Source: Acinetobacter pittii
GTDB lineage: Bacteria; Pseudomonadota; Gammaproteobacteria; Pseudomonadales; Moraxellaceae
Assembly (NCBI RefSeq): GCF_034067285.1
Contig: NZ_CP139286.1
Coordinates: 3,624,741 to 3,688,740 of the forward strand
Length of the DNA: 64,000 nt
Reading direction: 5' to 3'
Position numbers and translations under genes: made by a program. This document shows positions 42,208 through 64,000 of this stretch, one piece after another. Positions within the stretch are counted from its first letter, which is position 1. Each line of letters starts with the position of its first letter. The notes beneath the pieces are model-generated. The model ran no database searches. It had not been told where the DNA came from and saw nothing but the letters and a program-made list of their open reading frames with translations.

Positions 42208-43500
42208 TTATTGCATCATTTTTTGCGCTTGTTCTTGACGGAATGCGCGTAAAATTTGTTGCCCTGCTCGTCCGGTTGGATTTAAACCTAAACGAGTTTG
42301 TTCCTGACGAATAGCCACACGGGTTTTATCACCAATAAGGCCATCAACTGCACCAATATCATAGCCACGATTAATCAAAAACTGTTGGATTTCACGACGC
42401 TCGGCACGTGAAGTTCCTGGATCATCAGTTGGCCAAGATGAAACAAATGGACCAGCACCTTTTAAACGATCAGATAAATGGGCAATCGCAAGTCCATAAC
42501 TTTCCGCAGCGTTATAGCTGTAAATAGCATCAAAATTCTTAAATACTAAAAATACTGGACCATTTACTCCTGCAGGTGCCATTAAACCCGCTGAAGTACT
42601 GCTAGATAAAGCCCCTTGAACAAGTGGAGAACCATCAATTCGAGTAACGCCTCGTGCACTCCAGCTACTTAAAGATTTCTTTGAACGTCGCCCTTCTCCA
42701 TCAATTGACATACCTTGAGGCACTTTTACTTCAAAACCCCATGGCATTCCGGTTTGCCAACCTGCTTTATTTAAGAAATTAGCCGTTGAAGCCAGCGCAT
42801 CAGCTGTACTAGAAACTAAATCTCGACGACCATCTCCATCAAAATCAACCGCTAAACGTTCATAAGTAGACGGCATAAATTGGGTATGACCAAATGCCCC
42901 AGCCCATGAACCCTTTAATTGATCTTCGGTTAAGTCGCCACGTTGTAAAATACGCATAGTGGCAAAGAATTCAGTACGGAAATAACTTTGTCGACGACCT
43001 TCGCAACTTAAAGTTCCGAGTGCTTGTAATAAAGGATATTTTCCAGAAATATCACCAAAATTACTTTCCACGCCCCATACTGCTACAATTGTTTCCGGTG
43101 GCACACCGTAGACTTGAGAAGCGCGGTTTAAAACATCTCGATGTTGTGCCAGTTTTTGTTTTCCAAGCTCAACACGCTCTTCATCAACTAGACCAGAAAG
43201 ATAATCCCAAATAGGCGTCGAAAATTCTGGTTGATAATTTAATTTATCAATAACGGAATAATCTGGAGTTAAATTTTGGGTATAACGATCATAAGTCGTA
43301 CCAGACACACCAGCAGCAATGGCTTGAGAACGTAAATTTGCCAAACAGCTTTGGAAATTATTATTAGGCGTATAATCTTCGCTCGTCACTACAGGAACAG
43401 TAGCACTACTAGATATTGTAGAACCATTAATTACGAGCTCTGCTTGAGCCTGAGTCATCGCCAGAAATACAGAGCCAACAATACAAGAAAAACGTCGCAT
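42208..43500 (-). CDS. mltB: Membrane-bound-type lytic murein transglycosylase B
   Basis: The 430-residue MltB-family enzyme (SLT_2) has a Sec signal peptide (ending AQA, residue 20). The catalytic Glu145 lies in VWGVESNFGD; GAFGHTQFMPSTY and DGDGRRDL follow. The C-terminal ~60 residues (RREIQQFLINRGYDIGAVDGLIGDKTRVAIRQ...) form a peptidoglycan-binding domain. It cuts glycan strands to 1,6-anhydroMurNAc products, which feed the recycling route that includes MupP (7.5 kb) and Mpl (46.7 kb). Its 5' side opens onto the repeat-rich region at 43.5-44.1 kb. Confidence 0.94.
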   Translation of the reverse strand: MRRFSCIVGSVFLAMTQAQAELVINGSTISSSATVPVVTSEDYTPNNNFQSCLANLRSQAIAAGVSGTTYDRYTQNLTPDYSVIDKLNYQPEFSTPIWDYLSGLVDEERVELGKQKLAQHRDVLNRASQVYGVPPETIVAVWGVESNFGDISGKYPLLQALGTLSCEGRRQSYFRTEFFATMRILQRGDLTEDQLKGSWAGAFGHTQFMPSTYERLAVDFDGDGRRDLVSSTADALASTANFLNKAGWQTGMPWGFEVKVPQGMSIDGEGRRSKKSLSSWSARGVTRIDGSPLVQGALSSSTSAGLMAPAGVNGPVFLVFKNFDAIYSYNAAESYGLAIAHLSDRLKGAGPFVSSWPTDDPGTSRAERREIQQFLINRGYDIGAVDGLIGDKTRVAIRQEQTRLGLNPTGRAGQQILRAFRQEQAQKMMQ

Positions 43501-44135
43501 ATTATCCTAGTTCAATTTTTAAATTTAAATTTGTAAGTACCATACCATTATGAGTCCAAAATTTCAGAGAGAAAACGTAAATTTGAATTCATAATCTCTA
43601 CTTTAAATTCATTCCCCATGTTTTAAATTCAAATTTTCTACTTTATTTTTAAATTTAAAAATTTCTTAATCCAAATTATAAGTTTTGAATTCAAAAAATA
43701 GCCTCAAGTTTAAATTCAAAATCACTTCTTTAAATTTAAACCATAAACAATTCTTTTTTGTGGATAACTTTATCCACAATACAGCAAAAAACCTCTATTT
43801 CTTAATGCTATTCCATATTCTCTTATTATTTATTAAATATTAAGGCTCAACCCCATCACCGCAATCCACACTTTTAAATTTAAAATCGGCCCAAAATTTT
43901 AAATTCAAAATACCATATCAATAGACAACTAATTTTGAATTTAAAACCCACCCAACTTTCTCATTTAAATTTAAAAAACACTTTTGTGGATAACTAATTT
44001 TAAATTCAAAAAAACCATGGGCAGCTATTTTAGGTTTTAAATTCAAATTATAGTAGCTTTTTTAAATTCAAAAGTTCCAATTAAAGTTATCCCCAGCACC
44101 AAAATATGTAAGTTATCTTATTTTTAAATTTAAAA
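43501..44135. repeat. AT-rich cluster of 12-bp palindromes with DnaA boxes
   Basis: No gene is found in this 635 bp. I count 14 full matches to the palindromic motif TTTRAATTYAAA, starting at 43518, 43622, 43648, 43684, 43709, 43729, 43873, 43898, 43934, 43964, 43999, 44036, 44061 and 44123, plus partial copies at 43582 and 43602. Many neighbours start 25-26 or 35-37 bp apart. Perfect DnaA boxes occur at 43759-43767 and 43770-43778 as the dyad TGTGGATAACTTTATCCACA, and at 43985-43993; TTATCCCCA at 44087 is a near match. The same 12-bp motif recurs in the oriC region. It lies between mltB (whose promoter must be here) and purK. Confidence 0.85.
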
Positions 44136-44139
44136 GACA

Positions 44140-44168
44140 AAAAAAGCGATCCGAAGATCGCTTTTTTG
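44140..44168. terminator. Intrinsic terminator after purK
   Basis: AAAAAGCGATC-CGAA-GATCGCTTTTTT just past the purK stop codon on the minus strand. Confidence 0.9.
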
Positions 44169-44181
44169 AGTTAAAAATATT

Positions 44182-45303
44182 TTAGAGGTTCATATCTGCT
44201 GTTAAAGCGAGTGGTTCTGGCAAAATTTTTGCCAATTGGCGGCATAAAGTCGTCAATTCATTACTATCCACAGGCATTAAAGTGATATGACCTAATTTTC
44301 GGCCAGCACGTTCTGACTTATCATAAAGATGGAGATGAGCACCATTTAAGGCAAGCACATCTTCAGTTTTAGGATGTTGACCAATAATATTGATCATAAC
44401 CGTTGGTCGAATAACTTCTGTTGAGCCTAGTGGTAAACCTGCAACAGCTCGAATATGGTTTTCAAACTGTGAACAAACAGCGCCTTCAATTGACCAGTGG
44501 CCTGAGTTATGCACACGTGGTGCCATCTCATTTGCACATAAACCTTGTTCAGTCACAAACAATTCTAGAGTTAGCACGCCTACATAGTTGAGATGATTCA
44601 ACAAACGAGTAATGTAGTCTTGAGCTACAGGCTGTAAAGCTTCACTGTTCGGCGCAGGTACAATTGAGTGCGATAAAATACCGTTGTGATGATGGTTTTC
44701 AGCCAATGGCCAAGTTTTTACTTCACCATTTTGACCGCGCACTGCAATAATTGAAACTTCGCGAGAGAATTTAACAAAGCTTTCAGCAACCAGACTTTTT
44801 GCAGGACCAAGTTCAGCCCAAGCAGTATCAATCTGGTCTTCTGAACGAAGTACAAACTGGCCTTTGCCATCATATCCGCCAGTTGCAGTCTTAAGTACAA
44901 TCGGCAAACCAAGCTCAGCAACAGCCTTTTTCAAGCTTTCTAGACTATCTACTGCACGATACGGCGCAACAGGAATAGCAAGCTCATCAAATAATGCTTT
45001 TTCTGACAAACGATTTTGCGCAGTTGCTAAAGCAACACGCGGAGGGTGCAATGCTTTGGTTTGTGTCAAAACATCAACGTCTTCAACTGGTGTATTTTCA
45101 AATTCAAGACTGAAAACATCCGCACTTTCAATAAACTGCTTTAAGCCTTGCTCATCTTGGCTAGAAAAAACTTGGCCTAAAACACCTGCTGGACAATCTG
45201 TATTTGCTTCAAAAAAAGTACATTGAATATTTAATGGTAACGCTGCTTGAGCCATCATCCGGCCCAGTTGCCCACCACCAAAAATACCGATAGTTTTATC
45301 CAT
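44182..45303 (-). CDS. purK: N5-carboxyaminoimidazole ribonucleotide synthase
   Basis: The 373-residue ATP-grasp enzyme adds CO2 to aminoimidazole ribonucleotide in purine synthesis. It begins KTIGIFGGGQLGRMMAQAA, the PurK signature, and carries the ATP-grasp motifs (PIVLKTATGGYDGKGQ near 143; LFVTEQGLCANEMAPRVHNSGHW near 254-276). It lies 9 bp downstream of purE on the same strand, and its product is the substrate of PurE. Confidence 0.97.
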   Translation of the reverse strand: MDKTIGIFGGGQLGRMMAQAALPLNIQCTFFEANTDCPAGVLGQVFSSQDEQGLKQFIESADVFSLEFENTPVEDVDVLTQTKALHPPRVALATAQNRLSEKALFDELAIPVAPYRAVDSLESLKKAVAELGLPIVLKTATGGYDGKGQFVLRSEDQIDTAWAELGPAKSLVAESFVKFSREVSIIAVRGQNGEVKTWPLAENHHHNGILSHSIVPAPNSEALQPVAQDYITRLLNHLNYVGVLTLELFVTEQGLCANEMAPRVHNSGHWSIEGAVCSQFENHIRAVAGLPLGSTEVIRPTVMINIIGQHPKTEDVLALNGAHLHLYDKSERAGRKLGHITLMPVDSNELTTLCRQLAKILPEPLALTADMNL

Positions 45304-57887: not shown

Positions 57888-58850
57888 TTATGCCAATGTT
57901 TCACGTGGAACATAAGTAGGTTTTAGAATATTAATTTCTACTGATATATGCACAATTTCCTCATGAATCGATAAAGCATGACGAATCAGGTCTGCATTTA
58001 AAGAAATATCATCAGTCTCTAGGGCCAAAATACAAGAAAACTTACCTTTGGCGACTTTCCAAACATGAAGATCCGTAATTTCAAGGTTCTTAGGAAATTC
58101 AGCAATCACTTCACGAATTTCTTCTACCACTGGATGATCCATTTCTGCATCTAGAAGTGTTTTCCCTGTCTCTTTCATTAAGCCAAGAGACCATTTTGCA
58201 ACCAAAATAGCACCTAAAATCCCTAAAAGTGCATCTAAAAAATCCCATCCGAAATATTTACCTGCGAAAAGCGCAACAATTGCAAAAACAGAAGTGACTG
58301 CATCTGCAACCACATGTAAAAAAGCAGCTTTTTGATTTAAATCATGGTGATGATGCCCATGGTCATGATGGTGATGGTGATGGTGATGGTGATGGTGCCC
58401 ATCATCGTGAAGTAACCATGCACAAATCAAGTTAATGACCAGACCTAAAATTGCAATAGGAATCGCTTCATTATAAAAAATCTCAACTGGATTAAATAAA
58501 CGTTGTATCGACTGAAGTGCCATAAAAATAGCGACAACCATCAGCAAAATTGCACTGCTATAGCCCGCTAAAATCTCGATTTTCCATGTTCCGAAACTAA
58601 ACCGACGATCTTTGGAGTAATGACGAGCCGCACGATAAGCAAAATAGGCTAAACCGAGTGCCAACATATGTGAGCTCATATGCCAACCATCAGCCAGAAG
58701 CGCCATTGAATTAAAAAACCATCCACCGAATATTTCTAACACCATCATGGATGCCGTTAAAATTGTTGCAATCAAAATACGTTTTTGTGCAAGTGGATTT
58801 CCTTCATCAAACTGATGTTGATGATGACGTGATACACTATGTTCCTGCAT
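57888..58850 (-). CDS. dmeF: Cation diffusion facilitator, DmeF-type cobalt/nickel exporter
   Basis: The 320-residue CDF protein starts at the ATG at 58850 (a TTG at 58865 is possible). It has six membrane segments, a cytosolic loop with 11 consecutive His (residues 152-162) plus a second His cluster, and a C-terminal CDF domain. The first transport-site motif reads ADGWHMSSH with His61 in place of the usual Asp, as in DmeF, while the second is H179-x3-D183. It is divergent from an RcnR-type regulator, so cobalt or nickel export is likelier than zinc. The last codons contain a perfect parS site. Confidence 0.85.
   Translation of the reverse strand: MQEHSVSRHHQHQFDEGNPLAQKRILIATILTASMMVLEIFGGWFFNSMALLADGWHMSSHMLALGLAYFAYRAARHYSKDRRFSFGTWKIEILAGYSSAILLMVVAIFMALQSIQRLFNPVEIFYNEAIPIAILGLVINLICAWLLHDDGHHHHHHHHHHHDHGHHHHDLNQKAAFLHVVADAVTSVFAIVALFAGKYFGWDFLDALLGILGAILVAKWSLGLMKETGKTLLDAEMDHPVVEEIREVIAEFPKNLEITDLHVWKVAKGKFSCILALETDDISLNADLIRHALSIHEEIVHISVEINILKPTYVPRETLA
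57897..57912. promoter_or_regulatory. Perfect parS centromere site inside dmeF
   Basis: TGTTTCACGTGGAACA, the exact reverse complement of the consensus TGTTCCACGTGAAACA, covers the C-terminal codons of dmeF (VPRET on the minus strand). It lies about 6 kb from oriC, the usual place for ParB loading sites. Confidence 0.85.
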
Positions 58851-63319: not shown

Positions 63320-64000
63320 ATTGAAACTCCCAAAAATGATCTTTCTATAAAGGTCCGCGATTTTATTGTGCAATGTTTACGCTGTCAATGAAAAACTAAG
63401 AAAGTTTTGTATTTAACCCAAATTTTTAATCTTTTTACTTCTTTTTATTCTTTCCATAATTTAGGGCAATATATAGCTTTAAAAGTTATACACAAAGTAA
63501 TTGTCTATTTTTATTAGAACTTTTAATATATACACACCTTATATACATATTTATCAACAAAACAAGATATCATCTTGGTTTTGATTTACAGCATTTGAAT
63601 TTAAATTCATATTTTGCAGTTATCCACAAAAGATCATCCTCCTATTAAATAAATTCAAATTTAGAAATTTAAATTTATTCTTATTAGAGGTGACTTTTTC
63701 TGTGGATTTCGCACTTTTAAAGTTAAAAAACATGTATTTGGGTTGTTGATAACTCTGTTTTTATTATATTTATGGATTGTGGATAAGTTTATGTGTTAAT
63801 TTATCCACAGGTTGTGCAAAAAGTTATACACAAGCCGATTTGAATTTAAATTTATTCACAAGAGATTTCTTTTTAGACAAAATCAAACGAAATCGTCATG
63901 ACAGATGTGGATAACTTGGTTAGAATGGCGACCCCTTCTCATCAGGAAGGGTTAATCTTTAGATTATTTGAATTTAAAAACGCAGAAATAGGGGATACAC
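63320..64000. other. oriC: Chromosomal replication origin region (oriC)
   Basis: This gene-free AT-rich region between rpmH and the window end holds nine DnaA-box-like 9-mers: 63486 (TTATACACA), 63551 (TTATCAACA), 63620 (TTATCCACA), 63744 (TGTTGATAA), 63779 (TGTGGATAA), 63801 (TTATCCACA), 63824 (TTATACACA), 63852 (TTATTCACA) and 63906 (TGTGGATAA). Four are perfect. Three copies of TTTGAATTTAAA (63594, 63839, 63967) recall the repeat cluster at 43.5-44.1 kb. The last bases, AGGGGATACAC, look like a ribosome binding site, so dnaA should start just past the window. Confidence 0.9.
63898..63926 (+). promoter_or_regulatory. Candidate dnaA promoter overlapping a DnaA box
   Basis: ATGACA (63898-63903), 17 bases, then TAGAAT (63921-63926). 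A perfect DnaA box (63906-63914, reverse) lies in the spacer, as expected for self-repression by DnaA. A small hairpin CCCTTC-TCATCA-GGAAGGG follows in the leader (about 63932-63951). Confidence 0.65.

Follow-up and report, generated by a model that had tools for sequence, protein, structure and literature searches.

A conserved array of AamA-type methylation sites and DnaA boxes between purK and mltB in Acinetobacter, with a tie to oriC and a possible role in replication initiation

The Dam/SeqA system of E. coli is built on an orphan adenine methylase whose GATC sites are clustered at oriC. Chromosome 2 of Vibrio cholerae, a secondary chromosome, has its own initiator, RctB, along with Dam GATC sites and a role for methylation. 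The RctB 12-mers and 39-mers of that chromosome offer a further likeness, being initiator sites of two types through which replication is promoted and inhibited. Clusters of DnaA boxes also lie outside oriC. In E. coli these are datA, DARS1 and DARS2, which alter the nucleotide state of DnaA; the activity of datA requires an IHF site in addition to its boxes. In the DARS layout given in the extract of PMC5742627 used here, box I is opposite in direction to boxes II and III, with the same spacing at both DARS. Joint removal of the oriC-proximal DnaA-box clusters (DBCs) of B. subtilis leads to early initiation, the effect being strong only when all six are removed (extract of PMC5295017).

Closest to the present locus is the AamA system of A. 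baumannii ATCC 17978, for which we draw on extracts of the AamA paper (PMC10483419). The orphan methylase AamA places N6-methyladenine (6mA) in vivo at TTTRAATTYAAA, such sites bear it on both strands, and it is lost without AamA: of the 60 adenines that exact motifs contain, run 1 found 55 methylated and run 2 found 39, and an aamA deletion had none. The genome has 281 sites of a relaxed motif, and methylation was scored at 59 of them in the first run and at 41 in the second. A shorter motif, WTRAATTYA, has been reported for Acinetobacter sp. NCu2D-2, and AamA activity is thus not confined to exact sites. A second study calls related motifs "partially methylated", in every strain that it tested, with AamA merely a possible cause (extract of PMC10287943), and TTTRAATTYAAA is named among the motifs of further A. 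baumannii strains in a figure legend of PMC13227989. Methylated sites in ATCC 17978 are densest in region 1 (29 and 28) and in region 2 (9 and 9), which lies beside rnpA/dnaA; both regions have a modification signal above the mean of regions 3–12, the last of which adjoins smtA. A sequence called motif II occurs once in that genome, in region 1. The aamA deletion is viable and grows more slowly, with dnaA up 1.5–2.4-fold, a change that complementation did not restore. In these extracts the effects reported for aamA are on growth, morphology, expression and phenotype, and none is on initiation; the sites are treated as gene switches, and DnaA boxes, conservation across the genus and a copy in a sister genus are not described there (PMC10483419). 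The terms "oriC" and "mltB" have zero occurrences in the main text of that paper.

We analyzed a stretch of 64,000 bp (the window) that forms the end of the single-contig chromosome of A. pittii (NZ_CP139286.1; 3,688,740 bp), in which dnaA begins at the chromosome's first base. Exact TTTRAATTYAAA occurs 17 times in the window, 14 times in the gap between purK and mltB and three times at oriC (63594, 63839 and 63967), with no further exact copy in the 64 kb; 100 dinucleotide shuffles of the window gave a mean of 0.22 matches and at most 2. The 14 gap copies span 617 bp, from 43518 to 44134. These scans bear out the first-pass annotation, which had reported 14 full copies in about 620 bp and three at oriC, and all of the DnaA boxes that it had placed in the gap are present: a head-to-head perfect pair at 43759–43778, a third perfect box at 43985–43993 and a near box, TTATCCCCA, at 44087–44095. 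It had overlooked a fifteenth, one-off copy, TTTGAATTCATA at 43582–43593, which the A. baumannii methylome paper names motif II. The gap (43501–44181) is 75.9% A+T, compared with 60.4% for the window. Sites and boxes are interleaved in it, as they are at oriC 20 kb away, where the three exact sites lie among nine DnaA boxes with at most one mismatch, and when 700-bp stretches of the window are ranked by DnaA-box density, the top eight all begin in oriC or in the array. A hidden RNA at the array was considered and rejected, as an Rfam scan gave only matches under their gathering scores (best E 0.22). The features, in window coordinates and with a strand where one is assigned, are as follows.

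42208..43500, minus strand: mltB-family lytic transglycosylase (SLT_2; MltB_2 subfamily), flank of the array
43501..44181: purK-mltB gap with the array of methylation sites and DnaA boxes
43518..43529: AamA-type site 1, TTTAAATTTAAA, 18–29 bp upstream of the mltB start, an mltB-proximal position kept in many species
43582..43593: one-off AamA-type site TTTGAATTCATA (motif II)
43622..43633: AamA-type site 2
43648..43659: AamA-type site 3
43684..43695: AamA-type site 4, TTTGAATTCAAA
43709..43720: AamA-type site 5
43729..43740: AamA-type site 6
43759..43767, minus strand: perfect DnaA box TTATCCACA, inverted pair with the box at 43770
43770..43778, plus strand: perfect DnaA box TTATCCACA, inverted pair with the box at 43759
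43873..43884: AamA-type site 7
43898..43909: AamA-type site 8
43934..43945: AamA-type site 9
43964..43975: AamA-type site 10
43985..43993, minus strand: perfect DnaA box, 5 bp from site 11
43999..44010: AamA-type site 11
44036..44047: AamA-type site 12
44061..44072: AamA-type site 13
44087..44095, plus strand: near DnaA box TTATCCCCA, one mismatch
44123..44134: AamA-type site 14
44140..44167, minus strand: intrinsic-terminator-like hairpin 3' of purK, boundary of the array
44182..45303, minus strand: purK, flank of the array
63486..63914: oriC DnaA boxes, four perfect and five with one mismatch
63594..63605: oriC AamA-type site, −407 from the dnaA ATG, 14 bp from the box at 63620
63839..63850: oriC AamA-type site, −162 from the dnaA ATG
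63967..63978: oriC AamA-type site, −34 from the dnaA ATG

The likeness to the A. baumannii system extends from the motif, including the rare motif II, to the dense regions as far as counts allow and to the nrdR and holC genes beside the methylase. The array of A. baumannii NZ_CP064203.1 has 14 exact sites and one motif II, or 30 adenines, and that of NZ_CP077849.1 has 12 exact sites and one motif II; motif II is also found in the purK-mltB gap of the window and of five relatives (L046–L050). From the matching site counts and the position of motif II, we infer that the purK-mltB gap corresponds to region 1 of the AamA paper. The gap is almost certainly an AamA methylation array, and the standing of the motif as a methylation target is well supported; the published AamA data on it come from A. 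baumannii, and the sites are presumably methylated in cells of the window's strain too. An earlier suggestion that the repeats form the binding array of an unknown origin-associated protein thus needs changing, as a known enzyme, AamA, methylates such sites (extracts of PMC10483419). A literature search for TTTGAATTCAAA gave matches that are unrelated by title.

The window's genome has one strong D12-class match, a 430-aa protein at 3452247–3453536, and another at 151 kb that is weak and lies in a frame of ~700 aa. The gene of the 430-aa protein has a GC content of 43.1% and stands in the order nrdR-ribD-aamA-ribE. Its A. baumannii counterpart is 99.1% identical and is found between ribD and riboflavin synthase, with nrdR and the polymerase III chi gene (holC) near. 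In the extracts of the AamA paper, aamA has 43% GC, and nrdR and holC are among the neighbors of the methylase genes (PMC10483419). The identification of the 430-aa D12 methylase as AamA (A1S_0222) rests on neighbors, GC content and class; a search of the PDB by sequence returned no solved relative. The AamA gene is present in all 99 genomes of a first Acinetobacter sample, at 77%–100% identity. A second sample, of 149 Moraxellaceae, has an orthologue of at least 83% identity in 49/49 Acinetobacter and in 4/4 genomes of one sister genus; nine of the other 96 have relatives of 29%–54% identity, and 87 have none.

The array follows a similar distribution. In the second sample, pairs of sites 20–50 bp apart occur in 46/49 Acinetobacter, 4/4 sister-genus genomes and 0/96 other Moraxellaceae, with no match to the control pattern, and the 96 genomes without pairs are also those without a close AamA; the co-occurrence of AamA and array is that of one clade and thus, in statistical terms, perhaps one event. 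Among the three Acinetobacter genomes lacking such a pair, one (G049) has two at 0–30 bp. With a 0–30 bp spacer, pairs were found in 94/99 genomes of the earlier sample, and the control matched in one genome. Of the five exceptions, G001 and G096 have a looser purK-mltB array, G020 and G031 have none, and the fifth is G030. Two sister-genus genomes have two oriC sites each, and in the stretch from purK to mltB they carry six or eight sites along with two boxes. The connection to oriC and DnaA that had been proposed for the cluster is therefore upheld, being conserved across most of Acinetobacter and one sister genus. A loss of the array from relatives that keep their oriC copies had been named in advance as counting against it, and this is the situation in G020, G031 and G123, which retain AamA and the oriC sites and lack the array, while most of the genus keeps it. 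Since some species do without the array and still have the oriC sites, the array is accessory to those sites and not their prerequisite.

We fetched 80 mltB loci, of which 74 (L046–L119) carry 4–15 exact sites upstream of mltB and six (L120–L125) show neither site nor box in the stretch examined. After exclusion of these six and of three loci (L052, L098 and L107) in which sites are present and the purK end was not located, 71 gaps could be measured. They hold 708 sites and 149 DnaA boxes, against 1.97 and 3.47 expected from dinucleotide shuffles of each gap (kinship ignored), which argues that the array is selected. At least one DnaA box is present in 70/71 gaps and at least two in 58/71, and the flanks of the same loci, 462,229 bases in all, hold one site and 57 boxes. 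In four clade alignments covering 23 of the 71 gaps, identity is 95%–98% in site columns, 86%–100% in box columns and 70%–77% in spacers, again ignoring kinship. Box number, order and orientation drift between clades, and the arrays of G001 and L118 have no perfect DnaA box. That the repeats arose in A+T-rich DNA by chance or mutation and have no function would fit the base composition of the gap and the variable copy number within A. baumannii (14 exact sites in L296, 12 in L297). The shuffles of window and gaps, the restriction of site pairs to one clade and the survival of sites beyond that of their spacers refute chance, and we give this reading practically no weight.

We also considered and rejected a mobile or phage-borne array: a three-copy pattern with its first copy limited to TTTAAATTYAAA matched one viral contig (14.6 kb examined, 72.5% A+T), which has no match to mltB or purK. 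Four Acinetobacter records labeled as plasmids carry the array; all are from A. baumannii, all have dnaA, and three are 3.7–4.1 Mb in size. Those of chromosome size (NZ_CP064203.1, NZ_CP077849.1 and NZ_CP104448.1) are probably chromosomes filed as plasmids.

The association with the origin is seen both in the position of the array and in oriC itself. In 23 genomes the array lies 14.1–25.6 kb from dnaA, as taken from one site or pair per array, and is flanked by mltB and purK in all 23. For oriC we fetched 30 dnaA loci and examined 24, the other six having dnaA at or near a contig end; one of the 24 has just 208 bp upstream, and the 23 usable loci have at least 450 bp. These contain 2–6 AamA-type sites upstream of dnaA, with at least two in 23/23 and at least three in 21/23 (kinship ignored), mostly clustered near −407, −285, −162 and −34 of the dnaA start. 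Across the gaps, DnaA boxes are nearer to AamA-type sites than random placement would put them (median 14 versus 25 bp; kinship ignored); the distances peak at 5 bp and at 14 bp, and the oriC site at 63594 is likewise 14 bp from a box.

Because array and oriC share both AamA sites and DnaA boxes, a titration site tied to replication through methylation is the simplest account. We lean toward a main job in replication initiation, a role suggested by the arrangement of the sequences, and we put the probability of the mechanism as stated, a methylation-coupled DnaA titration site that is paired with oriC and helps to prevent early re-initiation, at roughly 0.45. The array would be copied soon after oriC fires, whereupon its ~30 target adenines and those of oriC would become hemimethylated. 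The doubled DnaA boxes of the array would then take up DnaA at the expense of the two new origins, and this titration would last until AamA had restored full methylation. Two routes can be envisaged: a reader protein might bind hemimethylated sites in the manner of SeqA in E. coli, or methylation might act directly on DnaA binding. SeqA (PF03925) was found in 0/21 Acinetobacter genomes, with a positive E. coli control, and any reader of hemimethylated sites would thus be another protein. Neither an initiation phenotype nor binding of DnaA nor a reader protein is known to us. A broader and more tentative proposal, which we hold less probable than the mechanism by itself, is that Acinetobacter and its sister genus have independently evolved an epigenetic system of origin control. 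In it a core orphan methylase, AamA, which is neither Dam nor CcrM, would mark oriC and a dedicated DnaA-box island 20 kb away, and the hemimethylated interval and doubled DnaA boxes of the island would time a block to re-initiation without SeqA and by way of some other reader.

Over the whole genome there are 30 exact copies of TTTRAATTYAAA, against 14 of the reversed pattern used as a control: 14 in the array, three at oriC, four at 232 kb in coding sequence and nine singles. That close to half of the exact sites belong to one array, along with the raised modification signal of regions 1 and 2 in A. baumannii (extracts of PMC10483419), would suit an array that mainly holds or feeds AamA, with the timing of oriC remethylation being tuned in this way and the DnaA boxes secondary. 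Such a sink or loading site gives no reason for the presence of DnaA boxes in 70 of the 71 gaps, and we consider it improbable. Slightly less improbable is a site that organizes the origin region, in which a reader of methylated palindromes would gather that region for tethering, segregation or condensin loading and the DnaA boxes would merely help. Two of the three site clusters in the genome are near oriC, a single parS-like 16-mer is found at window position 57897, ~6 kb from dnaA, and the spacing of neighboring sites in the gaps of L046–L119 favors multiples of ~5.6 bp, half a helical turn, as for cooperative binding. The spacing statistic (resultant 0.32, null maximum 0.145) is descriptive, however, and takes no account of kinship among the 71 loci; the third cluster lies at a distance of 232 kb, and no reader is known.

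This third cluster comprises four exact sites within 294 bp (genome 232238–232531; L005:7239–7532), inside a methyltransferase-like coding sequence that we take by inference to be the smtA of the AamA paper. A match to the gene was found in 59 genomes, of which 30 loci were fetched; these 30 orthologues, three of them without a site, hold 73 sites, against 10.7 expected from synonymous shuffling (maximum 21 in 500 shuffles; the orthologues are related and do not make 30 independent cases). The excess over the synonymous expectation shows the DNA motif itself to be under selection, even within the coding sequence of this smtA-like gene. A DnaA-linked cluster in smtA was rejected, since the locus has no perfect DnaA box in the window's genome.

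The plain alternative to a part in replication is an epigenetic promoter switch, in which methylation of the array sets mltB expression, the DnaA boxes add control by DnaA, and replication is not the target. The array stands upstream of mltB in 74 of the 80 loci fetched with that gene, and one site lies 18–29 bp before the mltB start codon. According to the extracts of the AamA paper, the aamA mutant showed a 1.6-fold change in "mltA", one of the genes close to methylated sites, and complementation undid this change (PMC10483419); we take this "mltA" to be the mltB gene here. Other genes have nevertheless come between mltB and all or part of the array in three loci: an integrase-core transposase gene separates 10 of 11 sites from mltB in L062, a DDE transposase gene splits the array in L079, and in L287, from the sister genus, the gene between the two is of the RlaP family. 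On the other side, a desaturase-family gene stands between purK and the array in L093. One site (L062) or half of the array (L079) does remain beside mltB where a transposase gene is inserted within or beside an array that is otherwise kept. Since the array persists though its neighbor genes change, and since the motif is selected at synonymous sites in smtA and is borne by oriC as well, a role in mltB expression alone is disfavored, and a pure promoter switch seems to us unlikely. A side effect of the array on mltB is likely, since many species, L062 among them, keep a site near the start of that gene and since "mltA" responded to the loss of aamA.

Set beside the E. coli systems, the array is of mixed character. 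Hemimethylation would follow replication as it does with Dam and SeqA, but the target here is a 12-bp motif with ~30 exact sites per genome in place of GATC, and there is an extra array 20 kb from oriC; the resemblance would be one of working principle only. Like datA, DARS1 and DARS2, the array is a non-coding DnaA-box cluster outside oriC. Unlike them, it lacks a conserved three-box core and, in a simple scan, a conserved IHF consensus, and its methylation sites outnumber its boxes by about 5:1 (708 to 149). The perfect boxes of the window run minus, plus, minus, and number, order and spacing vary between clades, so the DARS core, compared with the published layout, is not kept (extract of PMC5742627). 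The first-pass label of a DARS-like locus finds no support in this comparison. The datA label holds as no more than an analogy. Boxes are there; the IHF consensus is absent from the window gap and present in 16/71 gaps, in a weak scan that found none in the window's oriC either and may overlook sites. That a box cluster lies in a non-coding gap near oriC would be expected of a true orthologue of datA or DARS as in E. coli, which on the points above is very improbable. The B. subtilis DBCs share with the array several perfect-consensus boxes outside oriC and near the origin. To our knowledge, those clusters have no methylation sites.

As far as we know, the way in which initiation is limited in bacteria without SeqA is an open question outside a few models, and Acinetobacter includes a major hospital pathogen. 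A literature search on Acinetobacter initiation control returned no dedicated paper among the matches listed, and one on Acinetobacter with oriC, DnaA boxes, datA or hemimethylation returned no such locus, judged by title and start of abstract among the matches listed, apart from the AamA paper. On this evidence AamA, so far seen as a broad gene switch, becomes a likely enzyme of origin control. If the reading is true, it adds another gammaproteobacterial case of origin methylation to set beside Dam/SeqA. The array also makes a compact, deletable target in A. baylyi, a laboratory species, where that of DSM 14961 (L063) has 10 sites, two perfect DnaA boxes and one TTATTCACA.

Two further kinds of DnaA-box arrangement were noted. 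Inverted pairs of perfect boxes with 8 bp between them, outside long reading frames, are found in the window's genome at 3225437–3225462, 3380355–3380380 and 572337–572376, one of them with a third box. No AamA-type site occurs within the 3 kb fetched at any of these places, and the three pairs may be nearer to DARS cores, or to hairpins, than the array is. A further small cluster, which the window's genome lacks in the 12 kb that follow dnaA, lies ~7 kb downstream of the dnaA start in four others, with 2–4 AamA-type sites and one or two perfect DnaA boxes: L290:9285–9451 (G096), L303:6958–7031 (G042), L304:7103–7379 (G093) and L305:6868–7009 (G153).
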